DNA of 64,000 bases from Buxus sempervirens (taxonomy: Eukaryota > Streptophyta > Magnoliopsida > Buxales > Buxaceae): assembly GCA_947561395.2 (NCBI GenBank), contig OX387182.1:7674595-7738594 (forward strand), written 5' to 3'. Position numbers and translations under genes: made by a program. Below the pieces are notes generated by a model. That model was not told where the DNA came from and did no database searches. It saw only the letters and a list, made by a program, of their open reading frames with translations. Of the stretch, positions 1 to 64,000 are shown piece after piece. Position 1 is the first letter of the stretch. The number at the start of each line of letters is the position of its first letter.

Positions 1-1501
1 AGTCTCATACAAAATTTCACTTCATTCCGATGAAAAATCTAGGAGTTATGCTCCTTTGAAGTTGCTGCTGGGGATTTTTAAAAGTGGTAAGTGCGCAACT
101 TTGGAAAATTGTCTAGAAAAATCCACTACATAAAAGTCCACGAAAATTGGTGTGATTGAAGTTTGTATGGCCATCTTTCAAAAGAAACTAGCCTCATACA
201 AAAATCCCTTCGGATGTGCCTTGGGTGGTCTCCTGAACAGGCCCCGAAGATCACAGATTTACCCAGAAAAGTACAAATGAACAGTTCTGAGTAAATCGGC
301 TACCAATAATTCAAATGGAATCCAAAAATTATGAAACCAACTGGATTTGAAAATAGACTCATAAAGGAATACTCAGAAACAAAAATCACTCAAATCGGAC
401 TTAAAACGAACACATGGCGGTCTGTCGAAGTGACAAGTTCTGTACTTGAACCTGAACTGTCTATTCAACTTCGACAGAGAGATGTCAAAAATCCGCTAGA
501 TAGAAATTTGTGAAATTTGGTGGACATAAACTAGACAGCCTCACCTTTCCCATGGTTCTAGAATCGCCCCAAAATTCATCCGGATGATGAAGTTATGGGC
601 GTCCGAAGTAGGGGTACAGGTGCTGTCAAGCTAAGCCATTGTTGAAGAAAAAACCAAATCCGAAAATTGATACAAATATGTGACTCGTGCAAGATGAACA
701 CAAATACTTTAAAAATCATCCAAACGGCATTCCAGAATTGATTGAGGCCATTTATTTGAGATTTATCACAATAAATGCAATAAACCCCCAAATATGAGCC
801 TATCCCGCCAAAACAGTGATATGTATGTGCAAGTGTAAAAAAACCAAACAAGATCAATAGCATGCATACATATTCATCCAAATAGGGTTCTAAGATAGCC
901 TAGGGTTCCGTTCCATTATCGTTTCCCTCTGTTCTCTCTCCCCATTAAACACGGTTCTTCAAGATAATCAAGGGTACTTTGAATATGGAACGGTTTACAA
1001 TCAATCAAAAAGGCCTTATGCTATATGGGTTCTAGCACTAGGGTCAATCCCTAGTCTCGTTTCTCCTAGATTCGCCTTCACGTTTTACGGCTAGGGGAGT
1101 CTTGAGATACTTTGAGCCGGGGAAGGATTTCCACACATACAAACAAGGCTTTACACTACAGAAAGGTAGAAGAAGAGATCTAGATCTAGGAATGTAAAGA
1201 CAGAAAATAAAAAGAAAATTTGAGGCTTACCTGAGTTCTGGAGGCGATTCCGCAGCGGTTTTCTTCTTCTCTTGGAGTTCTTCTTTGCGAGAATTCAAAA
1301 CAAGAGTTGAGTGCCCCTTTGCTTAAGGAGGAGTCTCCTATTTATAGGCAAAGGCTAAGGTCATTGGTAGACACAACTTAATGTCTAGAACCCCCCAATC
1401 TTAACCCTAAGGTTATTTCCGAGATTTCCCCTCATTTAATAAGGGACATGATGGTAACAAGTGATTTCTCTCGGAAAACCCTAATTTTGAGCAAAACTAG
1501 C

Positions 1502-1644
1502 GTATCCGGCATGTCAGGCCGGATACACAAGTACCTTAATGTATCCGTTCTATGATGCCGGATACACTGAGGTCTACTTGTATCCGGTATTGTCCACCGG
1601 ATACAAAGAAGGACACTTGTATCCGGCCTGAGTTGCCGGATACA
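1502..1644. repeat. U3 stem-loop module (four hairpins) in LTR
   Basis: Four quasi-palindromes of the form GTATCCGG-loop-CCGGATAC follow one another at a period of about 39 nt. The fourth has the loop CCTGAGTTG, which recurs in the 5' leader copies of this module. Confidence 0.75.
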
Positions 1645-10357: not shown

Positions 10358-10499
10358 GTATCCGGATACTCAGGCCGGATACAAGTACCCTTTCCCGTAT
10401 CCGGATACTCATACCGGATACATGTGAGCCTTAGTGTATCCGGTACCATGTACCGGATACCTTAAGGCCCTTTTTTATCCGGTCTGATATACCGGATAC
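10358..10499. repeat. U3 stem-loop module in solo LTR
   Basis: Four hairpins of about 25 nt each (8-bp stems GTATCCGG/CCGGATAC, 9-nt loops) are separated by 14-16 nt. They lie about 90 bp inside the LTR start and 160-300 bp upstream of the TATA box. Confidence 0.8.
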
Positions 10500-10655: not shown

Positions 10656-10663
10656 TATAAATA
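10656..10663 (+). promoter_or_regulatory. LTR TATA box (TATAAATA)
   Basis: CTATAAATAG is conserved in every LTR copy of the window (minus strand at 1339-1346, 20219-20226, 44516-44523 and 60362-60369; plus strand at 15914-15921). It marks the likely U3/R start. Confidence 0.75.
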
Positions 10664-18672: not shown

Positions 18673-18820
18673 GTATCCGGCATGAAATGTCGGATAAGGC
18701 TATGGCTTATTGTATCCGATACAAATAATCGGATACATGCATAGGTCTTTGTAATCGATAAAGTATGCCGGATACGAATAAAACCCTGTTTAACCGGCCT
18801 GAGTTGTCGATTAATGCCGA
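18673..18820. repeat. Leader stem-loop module of element A
   Basis: A degraded set of four hairpins begins GTATCCGGCATG and ends with the loop CCTGAGTTG. It is homologous to the module at 56954-57094 and has the same order and spacing as the LTR modules. Confidence 0.7.
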
Positions 18821-19780: not shown

Positions 19781-20624
19781 GGGTTCTAAAAACAACATAG
19801 GGTTCCGTTCCATTATCGTTTCCCTTAGTTCTCTCTCCCCGTTTAACGGTTCTTCGAGATAATCTTGGGGTACTTGGAATATGAAACGGTTTTCGTATAA
19901 TCAGAGGTTTATTCAAAAGAGGTTCTAACTCTAAGGTCAATCCTTAGTCTCGTTTGTCCTAGATCCCGCCTTCACGTTTTATGGCTAGGGGGAGTCTTGA
20001 GATACTTTGAGTAGAGGAAGGGTTTTCATACACACATCATAGGCCTTATTCTACAGAAAGGTAGAAGAAGAGAGCTAGACCTAGAATGTAAAAAGCATAA
20101 AAATAAAGAGAAGTTTGAGGCTTACCTGGGTTCTGGAAGCAGTCCGGCAACGGTTCCCTTCTTCACTCGGAGCTCTTCAATCTCCAACTTATGGCCATTT
20201 GCTTAAGGAGGAGCCTCCTATTTATAGGCAAAGGTAAGGGTTAGGGTTTGCATGATGGTAGATACAAAATAATGTCTAGAGCCAACCAACCTTAACCCTA
20301 AGGCTATTTCTGAGATTTCCACTCCTTTAATGAAGGATATGATGGTAAAAAGTGAAAACTCTCAGAAAACCCTAATTTTGAGCAAAAAGCTTGTATCCGG
20401 CACATCAGGTCGGATACACAAGTACCTATTCGTATCCGGCATATGTTGTCGGATACATTAAGGTCTATTTGTATCCGACAACTTATGTCGGATATAAAGA
20501 GGTATGCTTGTATCCGACCTGAGTTGTCGGATACAAGGAAAAAGCTTATTTTCTCAAATTCTGTGCTGGTTTCAAAGGAAATAATGATTTTTATCATTTT
20601 TCTGTGCAATTTGGGGTGTCTACA
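19781..20624 (-). mobile_element. 5' LTR remnant of element A
   Basis: This is about 840 bp of Tat LTR, ending at 20624 with GTGTCTACA. It carries the TATA box (20219-20226) and the stem-loop module. It is clearly diverged from the other LTRs, which agrees with element A being old. Confidence 0.8.
20393..20536. repeat. U3 stem-loop module in LTR remnant
   Basis: Four 25-nt hairpins are separated by exactly 14 nt. Hairpins three and four use GTATCCGA with TCGGATA(C/T) instead of GTATCCGG with CCGGATAC, so both sides of the stem changed together. Confidence 0.8.
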
Positions 20625-21385: not shown

Positions 21386-24417
<3,032 letters not shown>

Positions 24418-36135: not shown

Positions 36136-36366
<231 letters not shown>

Positions 36367-37049
36367 TAGTAAGTAGAGATTGCATTCTTTGCGCACAAAC
36401 TCGCATTCCCAGAAACTGAGGTGCTTATGTCTAACAATGGAAATATCCATTGCAGCTATTGACATTTTTTTTTATTGTTGAAATGCAGCGGTTATATGTC
36501 CCCTGAGTATGCCATGAATGGCATCTTCTCAATCAAATCTGATGTTTTTAGCTTTGGAGTGTTGATGCTAGAGATTTTGAGTGGCAAGAAGAACTATGGA
36601 TTCTATCATCTTGACTCACTTAATCTTCTAGAATATGTAAGTGACTAGAATGAAGCTAATAATATTCTTAGGTTTAATTTATACTTTATGCAAGTTCATT
36701 TTACCATCTCTTTCCCCTTTTCTTTGATTTTGTTTTGTCTTAGGCATGGGAGCGGTGGAAAGTTGGCAAGGGATTGGATTTGATAGATCCCTCGTTGTCT
36801 GATCCACCTTTGACACCTCTAACATTGAGATACATCCAAGTGGCACTTTTGTGTGTGCAAGAAAGTCCAAATGACCGACCTACCATGTCTGAAGTTTTCT
36901 CAATGTTCAGTAATGAATCTGCAACTATACCTTGACCTAGGGAGCCCGCTTTTTTAATTACAAGAAGAGATTCAGATCCAAATTCTCAAAGAAGTGTCCC
37001 AAGTAATTTTTCTCTGAATGTTGTAACAGTTTCCTTGGAAGCCCGTTAA

Positions 37050-42635: not shown

Positions 42636-44911
42636 TGTGAGACATGGGAAAAAATCACCGGAGTGATCATCCCTCCGTCAACACACGGGCTCAACGCAAA
42701 AGTGGGAGAGTCGCCACCATTCATGATTTTGGGGTGAGAATGGACACCAAAGAGTTCAAAATAAGCAAAAAGTGAAAAAAGAAGCATTCTAGGGTAAAAA
42801 TAACCCTACTTGAAAATCAAATCCAGAGATGGGTAAGGGGATTAGATTATGAACGGGGGAAGGTGTTAGGCACCCCCATTCATCCACACGAAGTGGTTGC
42901 CAAGTGTATGTTCATGCTAAAAAGAAAATAAGAAGCTTGCTAAAAATCATGAAAAAGCCTTGAAAAGGAACAAGTGTATGATATATTCACATGGAGATCC
43001 AAATGGATTTTAGATCTCCTCTTATGTCAATATCACTTCTGGAACATTAAAGAGGTGGAAATCAAAGCACAAGTTGATCAAAACCAAGTTAAATCAAATT
43101 CGGGAAGTTTGGTAAAAAAGTATGCCATTTGCCTTAAAATCATTCAAATCCAATTCTGAATTGAACCAAACCAAATCCATTTGAAAGATTAGGGTAAATA
43201 AGGGTCTCATGCAAAATTTCACTTCATTCCGATAAAAAAACCTAGGAGTTATGCTCCTTTGAAGTTGCTGCTGGGGATTTTTAAAAGTGGTAAGTGGGTA
43301 ACTTTGGAAAATTGTCTAGAAAAATCCACTACATAGAAATCCGTGAAATTTGCTGTGATTGAAGTTTGTATGGCCATCTTTCAACAGAAACTAGCCTCAT
43401 ACAAAAATCCCTTCGGACGTGCCTTGGGTGGTCTCCCGAACAGGCCCCGAAGATCATAGATTTACCCAGAAAAATGCAAATGAGCAGTTCTGAGTAAATC
43501 GGCTACCAATAATTCAAATGGAATTCAAAAATTATGAAACCAACTGGATTTGAAAATAGACTCATAAAGGAGTACTCAGAAACAAAAATCACTCGAATCG
43601 GACTTAAAACGAACACATGGCGGTCCGTCGAAGTGACAAGTTCTGTACTTGGACCTGAACTGTCCACTTAACTTCGACAGAGAGGTGTCAAAAATCCGTT
43701 AGATGGAAATTCATGAAATTTGGTGGACATAAACTAGACCGCCTCACCTTTCCCATGGTTTTGGAATCGCCCCAAAATTCATCCGGATGATGAAGTTACG
43801 GACGTCCGAAGTAAGGGTACAGGTGCTGTCAAGCTAAGCCATTTTTGAGTAAAACCAAATCCGAAAATTGATAAAAAAATGAAATTTGTGCAAGATGAAC
43901 ACAAATACTTTAAAATCATCCGAAAGGCATTTCAGAATTGATTGAGGCCATTTCTTTGAGATTTATCACAATAAATGCAATAAACCCCAAATATGAGCCT
44001 ATCCCGCCAAAATAGTGATATGTATGTGCAAGTGTAAAAAACCAAACAAGATCAATACAACATGCATATAGATTCAATAAAATAGGTTCTAGCATAGCCT
44101 AGGGTTTCGTTCCATTATCGTTTCCCTCTGTTCTCTTTAAGATAATCAAGGGTACTTTGAATATGGAACGGTTTACAATCAATCAAAAAGGCCTTATGCT
44201 ACATAGGTTCTAGCACTAGGGTCAATCCCCAGTCTCGTTTCTCCTAGATCCGCCTTCACGTTTTACGGCTAGGGGAGTCTTGAGATACTTTGAGCCGGGG
44301 AAGGATTTCCACACATACAAACAAGGCTTTACACTACAGAAAGGTAGAAGAAGAGATCTAGATCTAGGAATTTAAAGACAAAAAATAAAAAGAAAAGTTG
44401 AGGCTTACCTGAGTTCTGGAGGCGATTCCACAGCGGTTTTCTTCTTCTCTTGGAGTTCTTCTTTGCGAGAATTCAAAACAAGAGTTGTGTGCCCTTTGCT
44501 TAAGGAGGAGCCTCCTATTTATAGGCAAAGGCTAAGGTCATTGGTAGACACAACTTAATGTCTAGAACCCCTCCAACCTTAACCCTAAGGTTATTTTCGT
44601 GATTTCCCCTCATTTAATGAGGGACATGATGGTAAAAGTGAAAAGCTCTCGGAAAACCCTAATTTTGAGCAAACTTAAGGTATCCGGTATATCAGACCGG
44701 ATAACAAAGGGCCTTAAGGTATCCGGTACATGGTACCGGATACACTAAGGCTCACACGTATCCGGTATGAGTATCCGGATACAGGAAGAAGTACTTGTAT
44801 CCGGATTGAGTATCCGGATACAGGTAAAAGTTTATTTTCTTCAAATTCTGTGCTGGCTTTCCAGGAGATAATGATTTTTGATGATTGTTTGTGCAATTTG
44901 GGGTGTCTACA
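42636..44911 (-). repeat. 3' LTR of element B
   Basis: TG...CA termini on both strands (TGTGAGACATG at left, GTGTCTACA at right), with the TATA box on the minus strand at 44516-44523. It is almost identical to 58482-60757. Confidence 0.95.
44680..44822. repeat. U3 stem-loop module, 3' LTR of B
   Basis: Four hairpins of GTATCCGG/CCGGATAC type lie at a 39-40 nt period, as in the other Tat LTRs. Confidence 0.8.
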
Positions 44912-44926
44912 ACTGCCCCTCTTTGC
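44912..44926 (-). promoter_or_regulatory. Polypurine tract
   Basis: On the minus strand, GCAAAGAGGGGCAGT ends directly against the 3' LTR start TGTAGACACC. This is the position of the plus-strand primer in LTR elements. Confidence 0.75.
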
Positions 44927-45501
44927 GAGAGCTGCGAAGCAGTGAGTTGCAAAGAGTAGACAAGCCCAAATTGCATTCCCTTGAGCATGATTTGCTCGGT
45001 TTAATTCAATTTCTGTAGAAAACCATTTTTGAGTGGAGATTTGCCAAAAAGCCCTCACTTTAAGGGGGGCATCTCTCCAAGAGTTCTTAAATTCCACTGA
45101 GCCCTTTGTGGCTGTGAAGTGGATTTTAAGCCCAAAAATAGGATTTTTTGAAAAACTGATTTTTTTATCAAACCAAGTTGAAAATTGAGTGGATATCATC
45201 CTTTTGACCAGGCACATTTCCCAAAGTTGTCCCAAATTCCACAAAGCTCTCGTGGCTGTGAGGTGGATTTCAAGACAAAAATAGGATTTTGAGAAAATAG
45301 TAAGAATTATAGCACAAGTTTGCTTTTTCTTTTTTTCCTTTTCTTCTTCTTCTTTTTTTTTCTTTTCTTTTCTCTCTTTTTTTTTTTCTATTTTTTTCTT
45401 TTCCTTCTTTTTGGCTTTCTTTTTGCTTTTTTCTTGCTTTTGCTCTTCTTTTTTTTTTTTTTTTTTTTACAATATACTGAAATATCCCTTCTCCTTTGCA
45501 G
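44927..45501 (+). other. Segment upstream of antisense ORF, with pyrimidine tract and splice acceptor
   Basis: It holds a direct repeat of about 70 bp (near 45087-45155 and 45228-45298, TTCCAC...GTGGCTGTGA). A long T/C tract (45320-45495) ends in CTCCTTTGCAG at 45501. Read on the plus strand, this is a textbook 3' splice site just before the antisense ORF. Confidence 0.6.
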
Positions 45502-46380
45502 CTTTGGCTACTTGATCATTTGAGCCAGATTGAAGAGATCAATCGACACTTCTTCCCGAGTCTGAAAGTCCCTCTCTTGATGAGCAACAGGGGGTGCCCC
45601 GATATTCCAGGGGGCAAACAGGGCTGGTTCACTTTCTTGGGCTCGCTTCAGGATGACCAGGTGAGATGGCCTGGTACTTATCAGCCTAATGCGGAGACAG
45701 TGATTAGCTTCCGAGACCGCAACTTTCTGATTCTGGCGGGCCTGAAGCATGCAGTGCTGTATCTTCCTCTGCGGGTCCTTCGTCAGTTCCGAGCGACCCA
45801 GGGGATTATCATCCCATGTGGATATGAGGATCGTCTTGGGCCCCTTTCTATGAAGCTGAATGCCTGGTTGATGAAGGAGTGGTCCTATGTCCGCTTTATG
45901 CATGGTCCAGTCTTCTCAGAAGCCCATGTGAAGGATTATCTCTTCTGGATCAAGGAACAGATACAGACTCAGGCCCCGGTACCCGAAGATCCTCCTGTAG
46001 TCCTGGCTCCCACCTATGAGGACATTCTAGAGTCTGAGCGGGCTTCTCATAAGCGGCTTCAGCAGATATGGGTACGGGAGGCCCAGGAGCTCAGGATACA
46101 GGGCGCTTATCTGGAGAGGCAGCTTGAGGAGCAGATCTCACGCCGTATTGCCGTGGAAGAGAAGCTGGAGGAGCAGAGGCAAGCTCGTTGCTTTGAGGTC
46201 CGTATGATCCGGCAGAAGTACCAGGATACTTTGGCCAGCCTTAGGAGTATGCGGATTAAGCAAGCCCTTTCAGATGAGGTCATTTCCTTCCTGAGTGATC
46301 CCGCTGCAGAGGGGGCTGCAGGAGTCATTGCAGCTCAGGCAGCTCGGATTCGGGAGCTTGAGGAGCGGCTAGGAGACTAG
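45502..46380 (+). CDS. Antisense extra ORF of element B (DUF7745-like, coiled coil)
   Basis: An open frame of about 292 codons runs opposite to gag-pol, between integrase and the 3' LTR. Antisense extra ORFs at this place are known for Tat-lineage elements. The N-terminal two thirds (VPLLMSNRGCPD, KDYLFWIKEQIQ, aromatic and Trp/Tyr-rich) resemble the plant DUF7745 or plant-mobile-domain style proteins carried by such elements. The C-terminal third, from about residue 170, is a Glu/Arg/Leu-rich coiled coil ending in IRELEERLGD. There is no in-frame ATG near the frame start (the first is at 45580), and a strong splice acceptor lies at 45501, so it is probably an internal or last exon of an antisense transcript. 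Function unknown. A broken homologue lies at 2223-2860. Confidence 0.7.
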   Translation, partial: LWLLDHLSQIEEINRHFFPSLKVPLLMSNRGCPDIPGGKQGWFTFLGSLQDDQVRWPGTYQPNAETVISFRDRNFLILAGLKHAVLYLPLRVLRQFRATQGIIIPCGYEDRLGPLSMKLNAWLMKEWSYVRFMHGPVFSEAHVKDYLFWIKEQIQTQAPVPEDPPVVLAPTYEDILESERASHKRLQQIWVREAQELRIQGAYLERQLEEQISRRIAVEEKLEEQRQARCFEVRMIRQKYQDTLASLRSMRIKQALSDEVISFLSDPAAEGAAGVIAAQAARIRELEERLGD

Positions 46381-47342
46381 CTTTATTTCCTGCACATTTT
46401 TCATACCTTTGTACAAAATTGAACTCCAATAGTGGAAATACAAAGGATTTAATTCAAAATAAAGTTTTTATATTATTGGCCTCAGAATGCTCAGATACTT
46501 GTAAAAACAAAGGTTTTATGAAAAGTATTTGATTTATCATCACTGGCCAAAGTATAATTTTTCCTTTTTATATTTTTTTTGTATTTTTTATTTTTTTTTT
46601 AAATTTGGTCCATGCACTTAATCACCTATAATTAAAGGAATTAAAACCAGGTTAAATAATGAAAAGGGTAGTCCAGAAAATACTGAGGGATCAGAACCGT
46701 CCATCTTAGGACCTTTAAAGTCATCCCCAACTGCCAAAACTGCCCCATTCTGCTCATGCCAACTTTGCTTGAAGCACAGATCCCCATGATCAACTCAACC
46801 TCTGATTTTCTTTCATTTTTCTTATTTTTTTTCTTTTTGCCTTTTTGCCAATGTTGCCCCTAGCGCCAGTTACGGTTTTCACTAGGGCCGGCTTCTGAAT
46901 TCCGTCATCACCCATCTTACTCTGATATTTGAATGAACAAGCTAAGATCACCGAGGGCTTAAAAATAGGACGAAATAAAGGCTATGCTCAGTTTATGAAA
47001 GAAAGGGTATTAAAGGCCCAAAATTTTCAAGTGTGGAAATAGGTCAACCGGACTTACAGTCATGATGAATTTAACCCTTTTCCCCCAAATTGCATTTTTT
47101 GCATCTTTTTTCACACTTGGCTTTCATTTGCCATTTCCATTGCTTTTCCTCTCTTTTTCTTTTTCTTTCCTTACTTTGCCCCAATTGGCTTTGCCCCAAT
47201 TTGTTTTGCCCTAATTTAAGACTGTAAATCCGGTTTGGGTTTATCAAAGAAACGAACCGGCTCAACTTGGCTAGACTAGGGATTAAAATTTTTGAAGGGG
47301 ATAAAGAAAAATGGCCTCGGATCATTTCCCAGAAATATTCAC
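46381..47342 (-). other. 3' noncoding stretch of element B
   Basis: This lies between the antisense ORF and the integrase end. It is AT-rich, with T runs and short repeats of CCCCAATTGGCTTTG type. The small frame at 47071-47346 consists of these repeats and is not supported. Confidence 0.6.
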
Positions 47343-50300
47343 TCAAGGGAAATACCTTTTTACCGCATCAGAGTTAATGGGCTCAGGAAAATCTGACCCA
47401 TCCATTTCTGTTAATATGAGTGCTCCCTCTGATAGGACTTTCTTGACGACATATGGGCCTTCCCAATTGGGCTTGAACTTACCACGAGGGTCTTCCAGAA
47501 ATGGTAAGATTTTCTTTAGCACTAAGTTTCCTTCTTGGAAAGTTCTGGGCCTCACTTTCTTATTGTAAGCCCGGGCCATTCTCCTCTGGTACAACTGTCC
47601 ATGGCAAAGTGCTTTCAACCGCTTTTCTTCTATCAGGTTAAGTTGATCATGTCTCGACTGGACCCATTCGGCTTCTTCTAGTTCTGCTTCCATGAGCACT
47701 CGGAGTGATGGGATCTCTACTTCCACGGGCAAGACTGCTTCCATCCCATAGACTAGGGAGTACGGGGTTGCCCCAGTTGAAGTCCGGATCGAGGTTCTGT
47801 AGGCATGTAGAGCAAGTGGTAGCATTTCATGCCAATCTTTGTAACTTACTACCATCTTCTGAATGATTTTCTTTATATTCTTGTTGGCTGCTTCTACTGC
47901 CCCATTCATCTTTGGCCTGTACGGAGCTGACTTGTGGTGGGTGATCTGAAACTGCTCACACATTTTCTTCATGTCCTTGTTTTTAATATTTGAAGCATTG
48001 TCTGATACTATGGCACTTGGCGGTCCATAGCGACAAATGATATTGTGCTTCAAAAATTTAATAACATGGTTGCTTGTGATATTCGCATATGAAGCTGCTT
48101 CCACCCACTTAGTGAAATAATCAATCGCCACCAAGATGAATATGTGCCCGTTCGATGCCTTAGGGGAGATCATGCCGATGACATCTATGCCCCACATAGA
48201 GAAGGGCCAGGGTGATGTCATGTTGTGCAGCTCACCTGGGGGTGCATGCTTATTATCTGCATATATCTGACATTGGTGGCACCTCTTGACATGTACACAG
48301 CAATCATGTTCCATGGTCGTCCAGTAGTATCCCAGCCTCAGGATCTTCTTAGCCAGCATGTGCTTACTCATATGGGGCCCACAGACTCCTCCATGTACCG
48401 TCTCGATCAACCTTTCCGATTCAGCCTTGGCTACACATCTTAGCAGAATGTCGCTATGTGACCTCTTGTACACATGCCCACCACTTAGCAGAAATTGACC
48501 AGCCAATCTCTGTATTGTCCTCTTCTCAGTAGCAGTGGCATTTTCTGGCAGACTCCGATTGTTCAAGAAATTTTTGATATCTTGAAACCATGGTGTTTCT
48601 TCTTCTGGCGCTCCCTCTAGAACGAGACAGTAAGCCGGTTCATCTCGGACCTCAATTTCCAGTGGTCTGATGTCTACTCCTTCTGATATGCTGACCATTG
48701 AAGCCAAGGTTGCTAGAGCATCCGCAAACTGATTCTTGGCCCTTGGCATATAGTTGAAGGAAATTCGAGTGAAATTTGTGCTTATTTCTTCCAAATACTG
48801 GTGATAGGGGATCAATTTGTGATCCTTGGTTTTCCACTCACCAGTTGTTTGGAAGATGATAAGACTCGAATCCCCGTATACGTCAAGTTCCTCTACTCCA
48901 TGATCCATGGCTGCTTGCAATCCAATTATGCATGCTTCATATTCTGCTATGTTGTTGGTGCACTGGAATCTCAGCTTTACTGCAATCGGGATGTGCGAAC
49001 CATCTGGTTTAACCAAGACTGCCCCTATTCCATTACCGTTCATGTTGGCGGCCCCATCAAAGAACATCTGCCAAGAACTCTCACTGTCTTCCTCTTCAGT
49101 GTACAGAATTGCCTCATCTGGGAAGTTGGTCTTCAAGGGTTGATATTCTGGCAAAGGATGTGCAGCCAGGTGATCAGCTATGGCTTGACCCTTGATCACC
49201 TTCTGGGTGATGTATGTGAGGTCAAACTCGGACAGTAGTAGTTGCCACTTAGCCGTTCTGCCAGTTAGTGCCGGTTTCTCAAATAAATACTTCAGCGGGT
49301 CCATCCGGGATATCAATAGAGTGGAGTGACTAAGGAAATAATGCCTTAGCCTCTGAGTGGCCCACACTAGAGCACAGCAAGTCTTTTCCAATGGTGAGTA
49401 TTTGGCTTCATATTCTGTGAATTTTTTACTCAGATAGTAAATGGCCCTTTCTTTTCTACCAGTCTCATCATGCTGCCCTAAGACACATCCCATCGATGTT
49501 TCCAACACTGACAAGTACAGGATTAGCGGTCTTCCTGGAGTTGGTGGCACTAGTACCGGCGGGTTCAGTAAATACCTCTTTATTGTGTCAAATGCCTGCT
49601 GGCAGTCCTCATTCCAGATTGTCGGGTTATCCTTCCTCAAAAGCTTGAAAATTGGTTCACAGATAGCAGTGAGCTGTGCTATGAACCGGCTTATGTATTG
49701 AATCCTTCCAAGAAAGCCCCTGACCTCCTTCTCGGTTCTGGGTGCTGGCATTTCAATTATGGCCTTGGCTTTAGCCGGGTCAATTTCAATTCCTCTTCGG
49801 CTCACTATAAACCCCAGTAACTTCCCTGATGTAGCCCCAAAGACGCACTTAGCCGGGTTAAGCCGTAGACTGTACTTCCTGAGCCGATCAAACACTTTCT
49901 TCAGATTGATCAAGTGGTCCTCCTCTTTGCATGATTTGGCAATCATATCGTCCACATAGACCTCCATCTCCTTGTGGATCATGTCATGGAATAGTGCAGT
50001 CATGGCCCGCTGGTATGTTGCCCCAGCGTTCTTGAGCCCAAACGGCATGACCGTGTAGTGGAATGTGCCCCAAGGTGTGATAAATGCTGTTTTCTCTTAA
50101 TCTTCCTTAGCCATCTTGATCTGATTATATCCTGAGAAACCATCCATGAAGGAAAACAGGCCATGTACCGCAGTATTATCGACAAGAATGTCGATGTGTG
50201 GAAGCGGAAAATCGTCCTTTGGGCTTGCCCTGTTTAAGTCTCTATAATCCACGCACATTCGGACTTTTCCGTCCTTCTTGGGTACCGGTACTATGTTTGC

Positions 50301-52500
50301 GAGCCATTCTGGGTATGTAGAGACTGCCAAAAATCCGGCTTGGAACTGTTTGACCACTTCGTCCTTGACCTTCAGAGTCCACTCAGGTTTCAATCTTCTC
50401 AGCTTCTGCTTGATCGGCTTAACTTCTGGTAAAATTGGCAACTTATGCACCACCATGTCTGTGTCCAACCCCGGCATGTCCCGATATGACCAAGCGAACA
50501 CATCTTTATAATCTGCCAAGAACTGTGACATTTCATTTTTCTGCACATCAGACAAGCATGACCCGATTTTCACAATTTTTGGGTCATCTTCAGTCCCAAG
50601 GTTTATGGATATGGTCTCCTCAATATTAGTTTAGACCCCCTTTTCATGACGTTCCAATTGGTATTCAATTTCTTTTGGAACGTCTTCTTCTTCGACCTCG
50701 GTCTCTTCTTCAACCCCCATGAGGTCAAAGTCGAGCTCGAAGTTGAAGTCATATTCAACCTGGTCCAATTCGGTCTGATTATATGGTTCATAAGTGGTTT
50801 GGACCTTTTTGAAAAAATTAAATTTTCTAGAAAAAATAGAAAAATCTTTTTGGTTTTTTGTGGGCCTTCTAAACATAATTCCCCTGAAGACGAAGGCCCA
50901 TTAGAACCTTCAGGGAAATGGCATTCCACTATTGGAGTTTTTTTTTGGAAGCCGCGTCAGTTTACCGAACAAACGCTGCTTCAAAGGTAAGGGGAGTTTC
51001 CTCCCAATTGTTTATTACAAAATTTTGGGGAGCAGGGGAAATAGGGAAAGCCTGCTCTTCAAACCCAGAATCCGATGCCATCATCACCGGGTGGGTACTG
51101 CCCTTTTCTGCTACGGGGCCCAATCCAGAAATGACCTTGTCTGGAATCTTCACTGCGGCCCAGTCAATGAACGGCAGGTCCATGTCTACCCCTGTCTTTT
51201 CGCCCTCAGTCATGGCGAAGAATGCACCAACATCTTCAGAAAAGTCCACCTGCTGCTCAGGCTGTGGCCCAGGCCCATCGGCTGCTCCCAGTATTGGAGA
51301 GGGGTTATAGGGTTGTAGGGCCGAAACAACAGGCTTCTGAAATGGGTTGACATTTTGGTATGGGGGTTTGGACTGGTCCATAGGAGGAGAAATTTGAATT
51401 ATATAGGCGGGTTTTGGAAAGTTCACCCTCAAATGCGGGAGTTTTCCTTTGCTTCTGCTCTCCCCTTCTTCGTGCTTCATTCTCCTCCAACCTCTGGGCT
51501 CGAAGCCCAACCCTACCTTGGGGATCAGTTTCTTAGCCGTGATTGGCTTCACCATCCCCTGCAGATTGATCCCCAGGCCTTTCCCTGGGTGAAAGTGGTA
51601 TTTCTCCATCACTTTCTTGACCATTTTTTCTGCAGTGGTCCCCTTTTCTTTCTTTTTCTCACACCCCCCAGGTATGTAATTGACCGCCTCAAATTGGAAT
51701 GAGTGGAATGCAATCTTGTCGACAGTTAGGTCCACATTGATCAAGGGTACATCAGGTGACACAATGGGCGGCACCAAGTTTTCGGCTAGGACTGTTATCA
51801 CCCTTTGCCCTCTTACATATTTCACCCTTTGGTGGAGCGTGGATGGTATTGCCCTAGCCGAATGTATCCACGGCCTTCCTAGGAGCAGATTGAATGCTGC
51901 GGGTATATCCATCACTTCAAATGTGATGTTAAAGATATTCGGCCCAATTGTGACCGGCAGTTCAATCTCCCCTAGGGAGTGGGTCTTGGAGCTATCAAAA
52001 GCCCTTACTATCCGCCCATTTCTTTTTATCCTTGACTGGTCCAGACCCAGCTTGGTAAAGTGATTAACAGGCAAACATTTAATGCCGACCCGTTGTCAAT
52101 TAAAACCCGTGCAACCACGCAGCCCCTTACAAAGCACAGTGATGTGCAAAGGGTCCACATGATAACACCCACCTGGGCTGATCTCACCCTCTGAGAAACT
52201 TATCACATTATGTGACAAGATTTGACCAACCATTTTACCAAGCTGGTCCGGATCAATGGTCTGGGATACGTGTGCACTCTGTAGCACCCTTAACAATGCA
52301 TCCCTGTGCTTTTCAGAATTCAGCAAAAGGCCCAGTATTGAAATCTGGGCCGGGACCTTGTTCAGCTGATCCACAAGATTGAATTCACTTTTCTTTATTA
52401 TTTTTATGAGGTCGGCTGCCTCATTTTCTGCACCCTGGGGGTGTCTTCTCCTACTTTGTTTTTTCCTTTCTGTTTTCTTTTTTCTTCATTTTATTTTTTT
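47343..52500 (-). CDS. pol region of element B (protease-RT-RNase H-aRNase H-integrase)
   Basis: In element order: protease with DNGS motif (near 52095); reverse transcriptase (about 49700-50500) with YVDD near 49950; Ty3-type RNase H (about 49150-49520); a second archaeal-type RNase H (about 48680-49060, FDGAANMNG, then a GDSSLII-type motif); and integrase with its HHCC zinc region (about 48300-48400) and DDE core (about 47770-48220). It ends at the stop by 47343 and has no chromodomain. Domain set and order define the Tat group. Most domains look conserved, but the region has a few breaks, so it is a recent fossil. Confidence 0.93.
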
Positions 52501-54644
52501 TCTTTCTCTACTTCTGTCTCTTTTTCTTTCTCTTCACCCCCTGCACATCTCCCCGACCTCGTCATGAGGTTCACCTCCTCCTGGTTCTGGTTCCTGACCA
52601 TTGGAACCGTAGCCGTGATTCCCTCGCTGTAATTCCATGGTACAGCGGCCTCTGAATAGGCTAATTTAGGAATGTCAACCATTAGTGGCTGGAGTTTGGA
52701 CCGGGATGTATGGGCCGGTTTAGGGATAGTATGGGCTGGCTGCACATTTACAACCAGGGGTTGAAGTTTGGATTTGGTGGGGACAGAAGAAGTGATGGAA
52801 GCAGTGGTGGGGTCAAGATTGATGACCAGTGGAGCCTTAGACGGCTTGGATGGGGAATAAGTGGGTGGACTGCAATTGAAGACCAATGGAGGCCTTGCAG
52901 TATTTATCTAGGCCATCAGAGAAGAGACCCGGTTTAGAGAGGAACTTATGTCCTCAGCAGCAAGATTATTATTTTTTTGGGAGACCATGTTGATCTCCTC
53001 TTCTTCCTCCTCTGGGAAAAAATGGACCTGGACTGTGGTCCCCACGGGTGCTATAAGCTGAGATGGGTCAAAGGCCCTTCTCGTGGTGGATATGGCAGTG
53101 ATGGAGTTGGATGGGCCTGCCCCATTGTGGTAAGGCAAAGGGTTCTGCCCAATATCATTTCCCGACGGGGCGGGTGCAGCAGTGTTAAAGACCAATGCCT
53201 TCTGGTCCAACAGGTCCTGGACCGCATGCTTCAATACCCAGCAGTTATCAGTAGAATGCCCCGGTGCACCCATGTGGAAATCACAGGTGACCGATGTGTC
53301 AAAATTTCTCCCCCTGGTGGCATTCAGGTTAGGCTCCTTCAGGGTCAAGTATTTCCCTTTCAGCAGGGTTGGCAGTAGTTGGGACAGAGATATGGGTAGA
53401 GGGGTCAAAACCCGGTTCTTTCTGTTGGCTAACCAGGCCTCTCTTTCCTCCCTGGTAAAGGTCCTCCTTGGGTTTGCTGGTACGGAGGGAGTGAAATTGA
53501 CATTTTGCGGGCTCTGATAAGACTGCTGGGCCTGTTGAGCCTGCTGGGGTTGCTGGGGTACAGAGATGTTGACGTGCAGTGGCTTCTTGGCTGGAGGAGC
53601 CTGGACCAGGTTCACCTCTCCTTCTTTTCGGGCCCCTGTCTTCTTGAACCCAGTTCCCTTCTTTTGGGCCATGGAGGCCGAGGAATCAGACTGCCCCGTC
53701 AGAGTAGAGTAGTCTATCAGCCTTCCTGACCTGACCCCTTCCTCGATCCGGTCCGCCACTTGTACCAAGGCAGCAAAGTTGGTGGTGATCTGACCCACCA
53801 GATGGTTGTAAAAGGGCTGCCCCAGTGTGCCCATAAATGTGGAGATCATCTCCGGCTCTTGCATAGGTGGCCTGACCTGGGAGGCGGCCTCTCTCCATCT
53901 CTTGGCGTACTGCCGTACCGGTTCATCTTTCCCCTTGGTCATCCTCATCATGTCGTACCGGTCCGGCACGATCTCCGAGTTGAACTTGTACTGGTCCAAG
54001 AAGGCGTCGGCTAGGTCCTTCCACCTCCTGATCCTTCCATGGTCCACTGTAGCGAACCACCGAAGGGCTGACCCGGTCAGACTCCTCTGGAAGAGCTGGA
54101 TCAGTATGCCATCGTCCCGGCCAAATTGGCATAGGGCCCCGCAGTATAGTTTCAAATGGCTTAATGGGCAGCCCGTGCCATCAAATTTGTCGAAGTCTGG
54201 GCACCTGAACTTAGCCGGTAGACAGACGTCCGGGTACATGCACAGGTCCTCGAAGGTGGTGCCTGCATGGCTGCCTCCCCCCTTCACTTCCTTCAGCTCT
54301 GCCTGGATTCTTTCTATCCTCAGCAGCATTTTTTTTTCCATCTCATCCCTAGCCTTTTCTTTTTCCAGCTCTTTCTCAGACTCTACTGTATTTTCCCTGA
54401 TCAGAATGGGCTCAGGGACTGGTTCAGAAATGGGCTCAGGCATGGGCTGAGCCGGAGGTGGAATATAGGCCTGAGGTGGTGGTGCCTGATGGGAAGTAGA
54501 TGCTTGATTCTGGGCTTGGGCCTGTTGGGCCTGAGCCGCCAGTAAGTCCCCCAGCATCTTGGCCAGACCGGCCACTTGCTCCTGCAGTTGAGTAAAGTCC
54601 TGGGCAGGGACAGTAGCTTGGGCTTGGTTCTCTTCAGTATTCAT
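52500..54644 (-). CDS. gag region of element B
   Basis: It starts at the ATG of MNTEENQAQATVPAQ (54644), the same start as in element A. A Gln/Ala-rich coiled-coil N-terminus is followed by the retrotransposon gag core (CRFPDFDKFDG-like motif, then LYCGALCQFG and WRRWKDLADAFL-like helices). A zinc motif of the form C-x2-H-x5-H-x4-C (CDFHMGAPGHSTDNC, near 53270) comes next, then a Ser/Pro-rich linker towards the protease. It forms the virus-like particle shell. Boundaries with pol are approximate. Confidence 0.9.
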
Positions 54645-54842
54645 GGCTCTTGCTTTGGATCTGGTCACGGGAGCAATGATTGCAAATAAGTGTAAATGTA
54701 CCTGACATAAGAAAAACAAAGACACAAGTCAGCTTCCATTTAACTTGAAACACACCCCTATAAATGTAGGCAGATAGGTCAGGTGAACACCAGTCCAAAA
54801 ATTTTTTGTTTTTTTTTTTGTTTTTGTTGTTTTGATTTTGTG

Positions 54843-56641
54843 TTGGAATATTCTAGGGCTTCCAAGGGTCCCAAAAAAAAAATTTTTTTTTATTTGATTG
54901 ATAAAAATAACCAACCAAGGTTTTCATGGAATATTCTAGGGCTTCCAAGGGTCCCAATTTTTGATTTGACTTGATTGGTAAAAAGGAGACCAATCAAGGG
55001 TTCATGGAATATTCTAGGGCTTCTAGAGGTCCCACTTTTTTTGACTTGATTGGTAAAAAGGAGACCAATCAAGGGTTTTTTATGGAATATTCTAGGGCTT
55101 CCAAGGGTCCCAATTTTTGATTTGATTTGATTGGTAAAAAGGAGACCAATCAAGGGTTCATGGAATATTCTAGGGCTTCCAGAGGTCCCACTTTTTTTTT
55201 GACTTGATTGGTAAAAAGGAGACCAATCAAGGGTTTTTTATGGAATATTCTAGGGCTTCCAAGGGTCCCAATTTTTGATTTGATTTGATTGGTAAAAAGG
55301 AGACCAATCAAGGGTTCATGGAATATTCTAGGGCTTCCAGAGGTCCCACTTTTTTTGACTTGATTGGTAAAAAGGAGACCAATCAAGGGTTTTTTATGGA
55401 ATATTCTAAGGCTTCCAAGGGTCCCAATTTTTGATTTGATTTGATTGGTCAAAAGGAGACCAATCAAGGGTTCATGGAATATTCTAGGGCTTCCAGAGGT
55501 CCCACTTTTTTTGACTTGATTGGTAAAAAGGAGACCAATCAAGGGTTTTTTTATGGAATATTCTAGGGCTTCCAAGGGTCCCAATTTTTGATTTGATTTG
55601 ATTGGTAAAAAGGAGACCAATCAAGGGTTTTTTATGGAATATTCTAGGGCTTCCAAGGGTCCCAATTTTTGATTTGATTTGATTGGTAAAAAGGAGACCA
55701 ATCAAGGGTTCATGGAATATTCTAGGGCTTCCAGAGGTCCCACGTTTTTTTGACTTGATTGGTAAAAAGGAGACCAATCAAGGGTTCATGGAATATTCTA
55801 GGGCTTCCAGAGGTCCCACTTTTTTTTGACTTGATTGGTAAAAAGGAGACCAATCAAGGGTTTTTTATGGAATATTCTAGGGCTTCCAAGGGTCCCAATT
55901 TTTGATTTGATTTGATTGGTAAAAAGGAGACCAATCAAGGGTTCATGGAATATTCTAGGGCTTCCAGAGGTCCCACTTTTTGATTGACTTGATTGGTAAA
56001 AAGGAGACCAATCAAGGTTTTTTTATGGAATATTCTAGGGCTTCCAAGGATCCCAATTTTTGATTTGATTTGATTGGTAAAAAGGAGACCAATCAAGGGT
56101 TCATGGAATATTCTAGGGCTTCCAGAGGTCCCACTTTTTTTGACTTGATTGGTAAAAAGGAGACCAATCAAGGGTTTTTTATGGAATATTCTAGGGCTTC
56201 CAAGGGTCCCAATTTTTGATTTGATTTGATTGGTAAAAAGGAGACCAATCAAGGGTTCATGGAATATTCTATGGCTTCCAGAGGTCCCACTTTTTTTGAC
56301 TTGATTGGTAAAAAGGAGACCAATCAAGGGTTTTTTATGGAATATTCTAGGGCTTCCAAGGGTCCCAATTTTTGATTTGATTTGATTGGTAAAAAGGAGA
56401 CCAATCAAGGGTTCATGGAATATTCTAGGGCTTCCAGAGGTCCCACTTTTTTTTGACTTGATTGGTAAAAAGGAGACCAATCAAGGGTTTTTTATGGAAT
56501 ATTCTAGGGCTTCCAAGGGTCCCAATTTTGATTTGATTTGATTGGTAAAAAGGAGACCAATCAAGGGTTGATGGAATATTCTAGGGCTTCCAGAGGTCCC
56601 ACTTTTTGATTTGATTGGTAAAAAGGAGACCAATCAAGGGT
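54843..56641. repeat. Leader tandem repeat, about 23 units of 77-81 bp, alternating two types
   Basis: Each unit has GGAATATTCTAGGGCTTCC and the inverted pair GATTGGT/ACCAATC. Unit types (CCAAGGGTCCCAATTTTTG and CCAGAGGTCCCAC) mostly alternate, giving a higher-order period of about 157 bp. Several long open frames across it are artefacts of the period. Confidence 0.93.
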
Positions 56642-56953
56642 TTTTTTTTTAATTTATTTTTTCCAAATTTGCTGAATTTTCTCAGTTTTCAAGTTCCAAA
56701 GTTTAACTGACACATGTTTGAGTTGAGTTGGTGTCAAAAAATATGACACCTTGGTTTCCTCTTTGATTTTCAAACTTAGGTTAAATCCTGAAAGAATATT
56801 TTATTTTATTCTTTTTGTTTTTCTTTCTTTGATTTTGTATTTTTGGGAACATTTCTTATGTTCTTTTCGGGGTGCCTAAGGATTATCCACAGTGTTTTAG
56901 GCATTTTATTCTGAAAATTTGGGCTGAAAAGCCAATTTGTGCATTTTTTGAAC

Positions 56954-57094
56954 GTATCCGGTATAATATACCGGATAAGAATATGCCTTATTGTATCCGG
57001 TCACCATAACCGGATATCCGCATATGTCTTTGTATCCGGAGATATGTACCGGATATGATTAGAGCTGTTATTAACCGGCCTGAGTTGCCGGTTA
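56954..57094. repeat. Leader stem-loop module of element B
   Basis: Four 25-nt hairpins are separated by exactly 14 nt each. Stems one to three are GTATCCGG-type. The fourth is TTAACCGG/CCGGTTA with the loop CCTGAGTTG, and the same loop caps the fourth hairpin of LTR modules that have a different stem. Confidence 0.82.
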
Positions 57095-58461
57095 TTGCCG
57101 AAATGACCCTTTTTGACTCATTTTTTTCACCAGATTTGATTTTTTTCATTCCCAATTGATGTTCACCTTAATTTGACCTTCAAAACTTGCCCCAAATTGG
57201 GCTTGGACATTATATTTGCAAAATCCCCCAAATTCATGAAAAGAACATGGTTTTACCTTGCCACCTTGTATTACCTTCATTTAATATGGTATTCACATTA
57301 TACCTTGGCCTGTAAAACATGCAAACGGCCTTCCCACATTTACACCCAATTTCCCCAAACGCAATTGTGTGCTTTTAGCCGAAAACGTGTTTCTCCACCT
57401 TCAAGCGTATGGTTTTTGGGTTTTGGCTTAATTGGCAACTTAGAGCTCAAGTCTAGTGATGCCTGGAATCGAATCACAGATCCCATTGTCATCACATCAT
57501 TGACTCAAATTCTAAGGTAAATGTTTTCACTTTCGCTTTCCGAAGTCACGACCTCGGTGCGCCAAGCTACATACATTCATGGTTCAACTTCCTAATAGGT
57601 AAAGGGTAGGCTGTGCAAATTGTTTCAAGTGCTCAAGTGCAATTTTAAAATTGTGGTAACATTCATAACGTCCCAGCCCCTTGCCACTCTTTTTCGTAGC
57701 CATGCATTCAATTTCAAGCCAAGGTACTAATGACAAAGATAATGAAGCTAAATACAAGCAAGCAAGCACCAAAGTAACCAAATATGCACAAAAAATATTA
57801 CATGCCCAAAAAGGGGTATACAAAACATGTTATTTGTACAAACAACAACTAAACCATGGAAGCATGCTTGACCCAAAAGCATTCCCTAAAATTCCAGATT
57901 TTCATGCCTTTTTCATGCTCAAAGTGTACCATTTACCCCAAATTGAAGCCTAAAATTTTAGCACTTACTTGGCATGATACAAGAAAGGTTTTGATGATTT
58001 AAACATGCTTGAAAACCCCCAAATATGCACTGAAATTTCCAGAATTTTCATGCTCAAAAGTGCATCCTTTATACCCCAAATTAAAGGCATGGCAAAAAAA
58101 AAAAAAAAATTTTTAAGCACAAAAAAGTATGCTTCATAGGAATCATGTTTGAATACCCAAAAAATTCTGAACTCCTTGATTTCATGCTATTAATTCTCAT
58201 ATTCAAACCATGGTATTCAAAATTCAAATTAGAGCATGTTATCACCAAATACAACCAAATCATGCTTCAAGATAGGCTTTTCCTAAATCAACCTTTAGGC
58301 AACATCAAGCAAAACATACATGACTTGATTCATATAAAATTCAAAAGCATCCCAATCTGATTTAGAATACAACATTATGCACAAATAAAACAAACAAAAT
58401 AGCAAGCATTCAAAAGTGATGAAAAAGCATGAATATACACAAAATGGCTTAAATCAACAGT

Positions 58462-58479
58462 TCCCTAGCAGAGTCGCCA
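58462..58479 (-). promoter_or_regulatory. Primer binding site, tRNA-Arg type
   Basis: On the minus strand TGGCGACTCTGCTAGGGA starts two bases inside the 5' LTR. It matches the 3' end of plant tRNA-Arg (pattern TGGCGACTCCGCTGGGGA) with two differences, as known for Ogre/Tat elements. Confidence 0.85.
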
Positions 58480-58481
58480 GT

Positions 58482-60757
58482 TGTGAGACATGGGAAAAAA
58501 TCACCGGAGTGATCATCCCTCCGTCAACACACGGGCTCAACGCAAAAGTGGGAGAGTCGCCACCATTCATGATTTTGGGGTGAGAATGGACACCAAAGAG
58601 TTCAAAATAAGCAAAAAGTGAAAAAAGAAGCATTCTAGGGTAAAAATAACCCTACTTGAAAATCAAATCCAGAGATGGGTAAGGGGATTAGATTATGAAC
58701 GGGGGAAGGTGTTAGGCACCCCTATTCATCCACACGAAGTGGTTGCCAAGTGTATGTTCATGCTAAAAAGAAAATAAGAAGCTTGCTAAAAATCATGAAA
58801 AAGCCTTGAAAAGGAACAAGTGTATGATATATTCACATGGAGATCCAAATGGATTTTAGATCTCCTCTTATGTCAATATCACTTCTGGAACATTAAAGAG
58901 GTGGAAATCAAAGCACAAGTTGATCAAAACCAAGTTAAATCAAATTCGGGAAGTTTGGTAAAAAAGTATTCCATTTGCCTTAAAATCATTCAAATCCAAT
59001 TCTGAATTGAACCAAACCAAATCCATTTGAAAGATTAGGGTAAATAAGGGTCTCATGCAAAATTTCACTTCATTCCGATAAAAAAACCTAGGAGTTATGC
59101 TCCTTTGAAGTTGCTGCTGGGGATTTTTAAAAGTGGTAAGTGGGTAACTTTGGAAAATTGTCTAGAAAAATCCACTACATAGAAATCCGTGAAATTTGGT
59201 GTGATTGAAGTTTGTATGGCCATATTTCAACAGAAACTAGCCTCATACAAAAATCCCTTCGGACGTGCCTTGGGTGGTCTCCCGAACAGGCCCCGAAGAT
59301 CACAGATTTACCCAGAAAAATGCAAATGAGCAGTTCTGAGTAAATCGGCTACCAATAATTCAAATGGAATTCAAAAATTATGAAACTAACTGGATTTGAA
59401 AATAAACTCATAAAGGAGTACTCAGAAACAAAAATCACTCGAATCGGACTTAAAACGAACACATGGCGGTCCGTCGAAGTGACAAGTTCTGTACTTGGAC
59501 CTGAACTGTCCACTTAACTTCGACAGAGAGGTGTCAAAAATCCGTTAGATGGAAATTCATGAAATATGGTGGACATAAACTAGACCGCCTCACCTTTCCC
59601 ATGGTTTTGGAATCGCCCCAAAATTCATCCGGATGATGAAGTTACGGACGTCCGAAGTAAGGGTACAGGTGCTGTCAAGCTAAGCCATTTTTGAGTAAAA
59701 CCAAATCCGAAAATTGATAAAAAAATGAAATTCGTGCAAGATGAATACAAATACTTTAAAATCATCCGAAAGGCATTTCAGAATTGATTGAGGCCATTTC
59801 TTTGAGATTTATCACAATAAATGCAATAAACCCCAAATATGAGCCTATCCCGCCAAAATAGTGATATGTATGTGCAAGTGTAAAAAACCAAACAAGATCA
59901 ATACAACATGCATATAGATTCAATAAAATAGGTTCTAGCATAGCCTAGGGTTTCGTTCCATTATCGTTTCCCTCTGTTCTCTTTAAGATAATCAAGGGTA
60001 CTTTGAATATGGAACGGTTTACAATCAATCAAAAAGACCTTATGCTACATAGGTTCTAGCACTAGGGTCAATCCCCAGTCTCGTTTCTCCTAGATCCGCC
60101 TTCACGTTTTACGGCTAGGGGAGTCTTGAGATACTTTGAGCCGGGGAAGGATTTCCACACATACAAACAAGGCTTTACACTACAGAAAGGTAGAAGAAGA
60201 GATCTAGATCTAGGAATGTAAAGACAAAAAATAAAAAGAAAAGTTGAGGCTTACCTGAGTTCTGGAGGCGATTCCACAGCGGTTTTCTTCTTCTCTTGGA
60301 GTTCTTCTTTGCGAGAATTCAAAACAAGAGTTGTGTGCCCTTTGCTTAAGGAGGAGCCTCCTATTTATAGGCAAAGGCTAAGGTCATTGGTAGACACAAC
60401 TTAATGTCTAGAACCCCTCCAACCTTAACCCTAAGGTTATTTCCGTGATTTCCCCTCATTTAATGAGGGACATGATGGTAAAAGTGAAAAGCTCTCGGAA
60501 AACCCTAATTTTGAGCAAACTTAAGGTATCCGGTATATCAGACCGGATAACAAAGGGCCTTAAGGTATCCGGTACATGGTACCGGATACACTAAGGCTCA
60601 CACGTATCCTGTATGAGTATCCGGATACAGGAAGAAGTACTTGTATCCGGATTGAGTATCCGGATACAGGTAAAAGTTTATTTTCTTCAAATTCTGTGCT
60701 GGCTTTCCAGGAGATAATGATTTTTGATGATTGTTTGTGCAATTTGGGGTGTCTACA
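58482..60757 (-). repeat. 5' LTR of element B
   Basis: 2276 bp with TGTAGACACC...TCTCACA termini in element orientation. TATA box at 60362-60369, splice-donor-like CAG|GTAA at about 60254, and a primer-site-like TGGCGACTCT at 58553-58562. Confidence 0.95.
60536..60667. repeat. U3 stem-loop module, 5' LTR of B
   Basis: The same four-hairpin module as at 44680-44822. Confidence 0.8.
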
Positions 60758-60762
60758 CCTAC

Positions 60763-61709
60763 GTTTTACAGTTTTGACAAAAACATGAATTGATTTATAA
60801 TAAACAATAAAACCCCATTTAAGCAAAGATTCCCCAACCTTCATTCAACGACCAGATCAAATAAAAATAGATAAATTAAAAAAAGAAAAGAAGATTGTAA
60901 GAGACAATGCAAAGAATCATAAAAAATACATTAATCCTACTTACCTTAACACCCAAACCAATTTTCCCTCACTTTCTTCTTCTCCAAGACCTTTAGCAAC
61001 AGTCCATGTCTTGCAGCCACCAACAATAAGGATTAGGGTTGCTTTACCTTAATATTCCTTTAATAAGAAGGGTTCAATCTCAGCCATCAATTTCTATTAG
61101 ATCTAAAGAAACATAAGATGCGATATGGTGTGTGCTCATGCACACAAATCCTATACCACATCCACCCAAAATGTAATAAAACAAAGACTATAAAGTCTTA
61201 GTCAAACTCAAAATATAATAAAACAAAGACTATAAAGTCTTTGTCAAAATTTCAAACTAAGCTTGACTAGGACCTTACAATGACAGATTCTGCTGTATTG
61301 TAAGTCCTTCTCAAAACAACGCAATAGATAACGCCTAAAGTGGCTTAAAAACTTGGTATCACGATCAAAGAAGAGTATTGTACACCATGTAGATGTACAA
61401 TGGGGCTAGCTGATTATATTTAATTCAGATTATATTTAAAAAGGTAAAAAAGTTTAAGTTGAAAATATTTAGTAAGGCTTCGACAAGTGGCCTATGATTG
61501 TTGTTCATTCCACATGAGATACAGAAAGCTGGGGTTTCAAAGGGAACGGGATTGCAATAGCACTGATTGTTGGAATGAACGATACCTAATCTATTAGAAA
61601 AGTTATGGTTTTGGAGAGTTGCCTGGAAGTGGGAGCTAAGACCAAGGTCCAGGGATAAGTGTTTAAACCACTTTCAGATTTCTTCTTTCTCATGGGACAA
61701 TTTTCTCAG
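60763..61709. other. Flank between element B and third kinase copy
   Basis: AT-rich DNA with short duplications (AATAAAACAAAGACTATAAAG twice near 61175-61235, quoted only in part here). No exon of the receptor ectodomain is present. Similarity to the other kinase copies starts only at 61710. Confidence 0.5.
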
Positions 61710-63230
<1,521 letters not shown>

Positions 63231-64000
63231 TGTTATCTCCTTCCCTTTATTGGGTGGCATGTGCTCTTGGTGTGGTAGGGTAGAAAGAAGACATGAAACT
63301 TTGTTAGTTATTGACAAGTTATTTAGTTATATTTATATATTGACCAGAAGACATGCACTAAAATCCGTTCCAGAAAGGCACACACACGTGCATACTCATA
63401 TATATTTATTATAGAGCATTTAAAACGAAAGGGGAAAAAGAAAAAGGGAATTTTGGTTGAAATAATTAAATTGCATAAATAATTATCGTTTCTATCTCCT
63501 AATCATTATCATTATCATTTTTATATATAGTGTTTAATGTGAAAACATTCTCCAAAGCACTAGTTAATCTTCATCATTTTTTAAGGAATTATTTGATCTT
63601 CATCATTTTTTAGCAAGAAAGGTCATTAAAAGTACATTTGGACTATTGAAGAAGGATTGACCTCTGTTATAGATTGCATCTTTTTTCAATACAAAAGCAC
63701 TAGTTAGTGTTGTAAATGCTTCTTGTGTCTTACACAAATCTTTAAGAGAATAACAACCTGATGATTTTTCTTTTTCTTTTTTTTCTCTGCATAAAGTGAT
63801 TGAAGAACTACATGTTGAAGAATCTGAACCAATCCTTGAGCTAGGGATCGAGAGCATGATTTAAGATATATATATTTGTGTTTTTTCCTTCGTGTCTGTT
63901 CTCTGTGGTTTATCTATTTAGAAAAATTAACTTTTAGTGATACCTTGTGTAAATACTTAAAAATTCAGTCAAAATTAACAAAATTTTTTATTTGGTAGTT
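63231..64000. repeat. 3' flank duplicated from (or to) copy 1
   Basis: Collinear with 24418-25350 through to the window end, apart from some short indels. It includes a 70-bp stretch near 63795-63862 that is absent from the copy 1 flank. Confidence 0.8.

Follow-up and report, generated by a model that had tools for sequence, protein, structure and literature searches.

A 64,000-nucleotide stretch of the Buxus sempervirens genome (contig OX387182.1, positions 7,674,595 to 7,738,594; the whole stretch is referred to here as the window) contains a Ty3/gypsy retrotransposon, located at 42636-60760 on the minus strand, in which arrays of short palindromes recur with a rigid geometry. The array unit is a 25-bp palindrome – GTATCCGG-N9-CCGGATAC – present four times with 14-bp spacers, both in the U3 part of the long terminal repeats (LTRs) and in the leader, and longer relatives of the element carry further arrays before two antisense genes. 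We think it probable, from their letters and position, that these arrays are promoter-proximal protein-binding DNA elements common to sense and antisense promoters. The preliminary description of this stretch read them as matching RNA hairpin arrays at the two ends of the genomic RNA, with a role in packaging, dimerisation or end pairing, and gave DNA-level factor binding as the alternative; it is the alternative that fits. A puzzle about RNA structure becomes a testable promoter question, centred on one base-exact cis-element that a retrotransposon family very abundant in this genome has at its sense promoter and at two antisense promoters.

In the proposed mechanism, each array would provide two to four dyad-symmetric sites with a half-site of approximately TA(T/A)CCG(G/A), a 9-bp centre and a 39-bp period. 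A putative sequence-specific protein, probably acting as a dimer or a larger oligomer, would bind them on double-stranded DNA as an ordered complex that recognises as many as eight half-sites along a single fixed lattice. This complex would set the output of the adjacent TATA promoter, either that of the LTR or that of one of two PMD-type genes lying antisense between pol and the 3′ LTR, and activation or anti-silencing would be likelier than repression.

Geometry and abundance of the arrays

The window contains seven arrays, all with 39 bp from one palindrome start to the next. Three belong to the element at 42636-60760 and lie on the minus strand: the leader array of four palindromes (56954..57095), the U3 array of the 3′ LTR (44680..44821), and the U3 array of the 5′ LTR (60526..60667), the third palindrome of which has one arm mutated. 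A leader array at 18673..18814 (minus strand), with palindromes three and four decayed, belongs to a second element that is older. The remaining three are the U3 arrays of a partial LTR with which the window opens (1502..1643, minus strand), of an apparent solo LTR (10264-12567) situated within another element (10358..10499, plus strand), and of what seems to be a truncated LTR (20393..20534, minus strand), the last being partly of the TATCCGA/TCGGATA type. U3 arrays lie approximately 93-235 bp from the 5′ end of the LTR. The module had been described at these seven places, and it is present at each of them, with one start, given as 60536, displaced by 10 from 60526. The 14-16 nt spacers reported for U3 reduce to 14 bp throughout, and the supposedly constant fourth loop, CTGAGTTG, is found in some arrays only, the array at 44680 having ATTGAGTAT.

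The pattern TATCCGG-N9-CCGGATA occurs at 28,399 exact sites in the 676.5 Mb genome, compared with five for the reversed control, and these counts exclude chance as the source of the module. Both lengths in the geometry are fixed to the base: genome-wide, there are just 21 sites with a centre of 8 bp and 14 with a centre of 10 bp, and the gap between palindromes, CCGGATA-N16-TATCCGG, is found 17,900 times, compared with 20 for N17. Chaining of 62 sampled arrays, with a tolerance of 37-41 bp, gave 154 intervals, of which 150 measure 39 bp and four 38 bp. Half-sites rarely occur alone, with 8 of 293 exact copies in 239,506 bases having no other within 60 bp – two of these eight from the decayed leader at 18673 – and two reversed control words occur seven times together in the same bases. 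Excluded before counting were two-unit chains that arose by chance (window position 39864; L045:3804), weak end units exceeding four mismatches, loci L009-L028, which overlap L035-L038 and L046, and L001, which is the window itself. Loci L049-L058 came from a mixed-arm listing, so that in each of them the palindrome that led to its choice is a biased one. The loop-9 pattern served to choose most other loci, and the loop-length claim therefore rests on the genome counts. For other families, 10 of 20 chosen places were sampled.

The CCGG cores of the arrays fall on a 13-bp lattice (13, 26, 13, 26 and so on). In other families (L055, L056, L058 and L047:1509-1753) the distance between paired palindromes is 104 bp (8 x 13) or 103 bp in place of 39 bp.

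Position of the arrays before sense and antisense promoters

All 20 U3 arrays of the family are followed by the TATA box TATAAATA 156-168 bp downstream, against an expected rate of TATA words of 0.0007 per base on each strand. In the 3′ LTR of the window element this box, at 44516..44523 on the minus strand, has its first base 157 bp past the array in the sense direction and marks the LTR promoter. Its counterparts follow the 5′ LTR array (60362..60369), the array at 1502-1643 (1339..1346) and that at 20393-20534 (20219..20226), all on the minus strand, and the array at 10358-10499 on the plus strand (10656..10663).

Longer relatives, in which the LTR arrays are about 20 kb apart, have two extra arrays between pol and the 3′ LTR. 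Array 3, with four palindromes, is followed 13 bp on by an antisense TATA box, TATAAATG, in five of five elements, and in the same number the ATG of antisense gene 1 lies 128-130 bp from the array. The four first-exon frames of this gene that were scanned all match DUF7745 and PMD, three of them above the curated cut-off. Ratios of non-synonymous to synonymous substitution rates (dN/dS) are 0.07-0.25 for its second exon (10 pairs) and 0.68-1.42 for its first (3 pairs), the latter giving selection on that exon no support. Array 4 has two palindromes, followed by TTTTATAAG in three of six copies and by TTTACTTAAG in the other three, and the frame of antisense gene 2 is 1.3 and 1.7 kb downstream in the two elements measured. 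All four of the gene 2 frames scanned match Pfam PMD (3e-13 to 5e-14), and with dN/dS of 0.06-0.12 (6 pairs of 4 copies) the gene is, by this measure, under purifying selection. An AlphaFold model of its product had a pLDDT of 38 and was unusable.

The association extends to other families, in which loci L047 and L054 have a TATA box 12-13 bp past the array end; at L047 a gag-like frame, judged by eye, lies downstream in sense. The DNA past the TATA box of antisense gene 1 (after array 3 in L030 and L033) resembles L047:1754-1800 and L054 (GCAACCAGC...). It is as if an array-plus-TATA module had moved between promoters. After array 4, a CG-rich inverted repeat (AAGTCGCG...CGCGACTT) is present at L034:575-614 in antisense and in five relatives, and occurs with or without the TATA-like word.

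Evidence for and against an RNA structure

Several observations weigh against reading the arrays as promoter elements. The TATA-like word follows array 4 in only three of six copies, and a leader array with a close TATA box is seen in one of 17 copies (L051), the same position in the others reading CACAAAT (15) or TCCAAAT (1). The leader array could once have been a promoter, or could be an enhancer or another kind of element. Some arrays also have other TATA words on the opposite side. The arrays are far more stable as RNA than shuffled versions, with z of -3.6 to -12.1, which is inevitable for arrays of palindromes, and genome-wide the two arms change together: at pair 8 there are 8,452 double and 4,387 single changes against 169 doubles expected if the arms were independent, counts that are inflated by clonal copies and are not counts of events. 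Since a clear TATA box is missing from many copies of array 4 and of the leader array, we rate promoter-proximal binding as probable and no higher.

The last two observations belong to the proposal of an array fold in the genomic RNA that serves packaging, dimerisation or end pairing, a proposal also favoured by the presence of stably folding leader and U3 arrays in the same element. The genome-wide association recurs at pair 4 (1,045 double and 545 single changes, 2.6 doubles being expected of independent arms) and does favour a two-arm symmetry, which pairing would predict likewise. The folding itself is not as the proposal would have it, since the four-hairpin form is absent from the eight minimum-energy folds computed for four arrays on both strands; the stems are nearly identical, and the folds are therefore cross-pairings. 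Mispairs within stems show no preference for wobble, A.C occurring 15 times, G.U 14 times and others 13 times among 107 distinct oriented palindromes with the outermost pair excluded.

The covariation signal is strong genome-wide but clonal, and weak within the aligned arrays. There, 12 U3 arrays contain two cells changed on both sides, both in the array at 20393 (12/500 shuffles), and 16 distinct leaders contain two doubly changed cells (63/500 shuffles). The statement that paired positions change together is only partly borne out: the array at 20393 also has one-arm changes in two of its four palindromes, the third palindrome of the leader at 18673 has three left-arm mismatches, and for palindromes one to four the outermost positions fail to pair in 14, 13, 8 and 15, respectively, of the 16 distinct leader arrays. 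In a test of the central dyad with 30 cluster representatives, loop pair 1/9 was complementary at 0.60 against 0.36 (p 0.0085) and loop pairs 4/6 and 3/7 no more than by chance, a result that fits the RNA and DNA readings alike. An Rfam scan of the window yielded no matches above the gathering score, and a transfer RNA scan of the window yielded none.

Other features weigh against RNA hairpins. The centre and linker lengths are base-exact, which hairpins with single-stranded linkers do not need, and the stem letters themselves are conserved beyond what complementarity requires. Arrays also precede the TATA boxes of the antisense genes, so that they should fall outside those messenger RNAs and are not confined to the RNA ends. 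Among the six TATCCGA palindromes in C1:0-5.92 Mb, none shares an array with a canonical palindrome, and one-arm units lie beside them; an array-wide TATCCGA type is predicted by a shared recogniser or by common descent, and not by pairing alone. An RNA role for the arrays within the genomic RNA seems very improbable on this evidence.

Conservation and mutation of the half-sites

Across 11 elements, compared as 55 non-independent pairs, half-sites differ at 126 of 3080 positions, loops at 650 of 1980 and spacers at 747 of 2310, with 849 of 8220 positions differing in a 150-bp flank towards the TATA box. After insertion, half-sites mutate no more slowly than the rest: between the two LTRs of seven individual elements they differ at 4 of 392 positions versus 3 of 1595 elsewhere (Fisher p 0.03). 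Mutation of half-sites after insertion, together with their retention in amplifying lineages, points to selection on sequence and spacing, as expected of DNA bound by a protein.

The symmetry could instead be a matter of mutational bookkeeping, in which it is maintained by template switches or by conversion, whether from arm to arm or from unit to unit, and palindromes without function are spread by recombination. Units do appear to be shuffled, the array at 44680 and that in L043 differing at 5 of 150 flank positions and at 28 of 78 in loops and spacers; the change of GG/CC to GA/TC amounts to one C-to-T event on each strand, such that symmetric decay could mimic covariation, and one-arm units are frequent in GA-type arrays. 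Conversion would, however, homogenise loops and spacers, which are the parts that differ most, and half-sites decay on single arms after insertion. Bookkeeping is also silent on the TATA positions and the exact spacing, and we regard it as highly improbable. A comparison of 44680-44821 with L043:1489-1630 finds the flanks nearly identical and the inner units swapped. The identical stems look like points of recombination or template switching.

A third explanation is that read-through transcripts of the arrays fold back and are diced, or that the array is a target of host silencing. It has a precedent in maize Sireviruses, where an excess of small RNAs is said to map to clusters of palindromes (PMC10760457, citing work from 2016). 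Such a process would not select identical half-site letters or base-exact spacing, and leaves the proximity to TATA boxes unexplained. As the reason for the arrays it is very improbable; small RNAs could be a by-product of arrays that act as promoter-proximal elements.

The carrier element and other features of the window

The element at 42636-60760 is bounded by a 3′ LTR (42636..44914) and a 5′ LTR (58482..60760) of approximately 2,279 bp and 99.3% identity, and encodes gag (54725-52908) and pol (50048-47343), all on the minus strand. The pol product has reverse transcriptase, RNase H, a second RNase H-like domain and integrase, with profile matches to RVT_1 (1-82, partial), RNaseH (145-275), RVT_3 (330-448) and rve (615-712). 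The second RNase H-like domain is a mark of the Tat lineage, and by this domain order the element probably belongs to that lineage of Ty3/gypsy. Relative to L032-L034 it is a deletion derivative: arrays 3 and 4 are gone, as are antisense gene 2 and the first exon of antisense gene 1, whose second exon persists as a remnant on the plus strand (45481..46380). The loss of arrays 3 and 4 explains why the preliminary description saw arrays in U3 and the leader only.

In two elements the stretch of leader that immediately precedes gag contains tandem repeats with units of about 76 and 158 nt (54844-56646 and 17654-18339). The plus-strand solo LTR at 10264-12567 interrupts the gag region of the window-start element, and alignment resumes on both flanks. 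Elsewhere, three related stretches (21743-24429, 34345-37060 and 61706-63507) are 83-90% alike, and a frame at 34312-35421 has, by eye, the look of a lectin-type receptor kinase.

Comparison with known systems

The antisense PMD proteins are candidate binders of the arrays, as their genes share the array and gene 2 appears to be under purifying selection. A possible, still doubtful, extension is a regulon run by the element itself, in which an antisense PMD protein would bind the arrays at the LTR, at both antisense genes and possibly in the leader, and feed back on expression and silencing. If so, array-wide switches from TATCCGG to TATCCGA would be a sign that binder and operator had co-evolved between lineages. 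A shared operator offers a direct handle on whether Tat-type antisense genes regulate the element that carries them, with thousands of natural variants available.

Antisense genes of this kind have been described before. Gene23 of Grande is reported to have its own promoter and a nuclear product, and a regulatory role is proposed for the antisense genes of Retand, which, like the family here, has an antisense open reading frame between pol and the 3′ LTR (PMC7264820, PMC11963269). TRP28 (PF04195) is given for 97% of the Retand clusters (PMC11963269), whereas the antisense genes here match PMD and DUF7745, and PF04195 was found in none of the proteins scanned. The available parts of both accounts mention no shared cis-array (PMC7264820, PMC11963269). 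A promoter motif tied to PMD proteins, as proposed here, is known in the DOWN motif of Arabidopsis MAIN/MAIL1; identity with it was rejected, since the form in the MORC1 promoter, CATGCAGTTT, differs from TATCCGG (PMC7156037, PMC9899485, as far as these sources were available).

Self-regulation through motif arrays has a precedent in VANC, by which VANDAL DNA transposons encode the reader of their own anti-silencing arrays (PMC5735166). As here, these are short motifs in non-coding parts of the element, and the letters evolve together, with half-site variants between subfamilies. According to the same source, in its accessible part, VANC differs in belonging to a DNA transposon, in having direct motifs in the same orientation rather than palindromes, and in that the reader protein is known.

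A close parallel is with the repeated motifs of Sireviruses, which, like the arrays here, are dyad-symmetric, contain CGG/CCG and cluster before the LTR TATA box, and which recur before the extra gene env (PMC2829016). The Citrus Sirevirus motif, AATCCGGCTWRCCGGATT, has ATCCGG/CCGGAT in common with the arrays. The carrier element is itself not a Ty1/copia Sirevirus, since its domain order is that of gypsy with integrase last. The Sirevirus motifs, in Ty1/copia elements, have a short centre or none and are present in many copies, and the accessible part of that source describes neither a fixed 39-bp lattice nor antisense promoters (PMC2829016). By analogy, the arrays may act like Sirevirus repeated motifs, with VANC-like self-regulation being possible. 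No report of these arrays, or of a rigid 39-bp lattice common to the LTR and both antisense promoters, was met among the matches listed in searches of an open-access library, subscription papers lying mostly outside its scope. Palindromic cis-arrays in LTRs are already known, and it is the rigid 39-bp lattice, at the LTR and both antisense promoters, that is apparently new.
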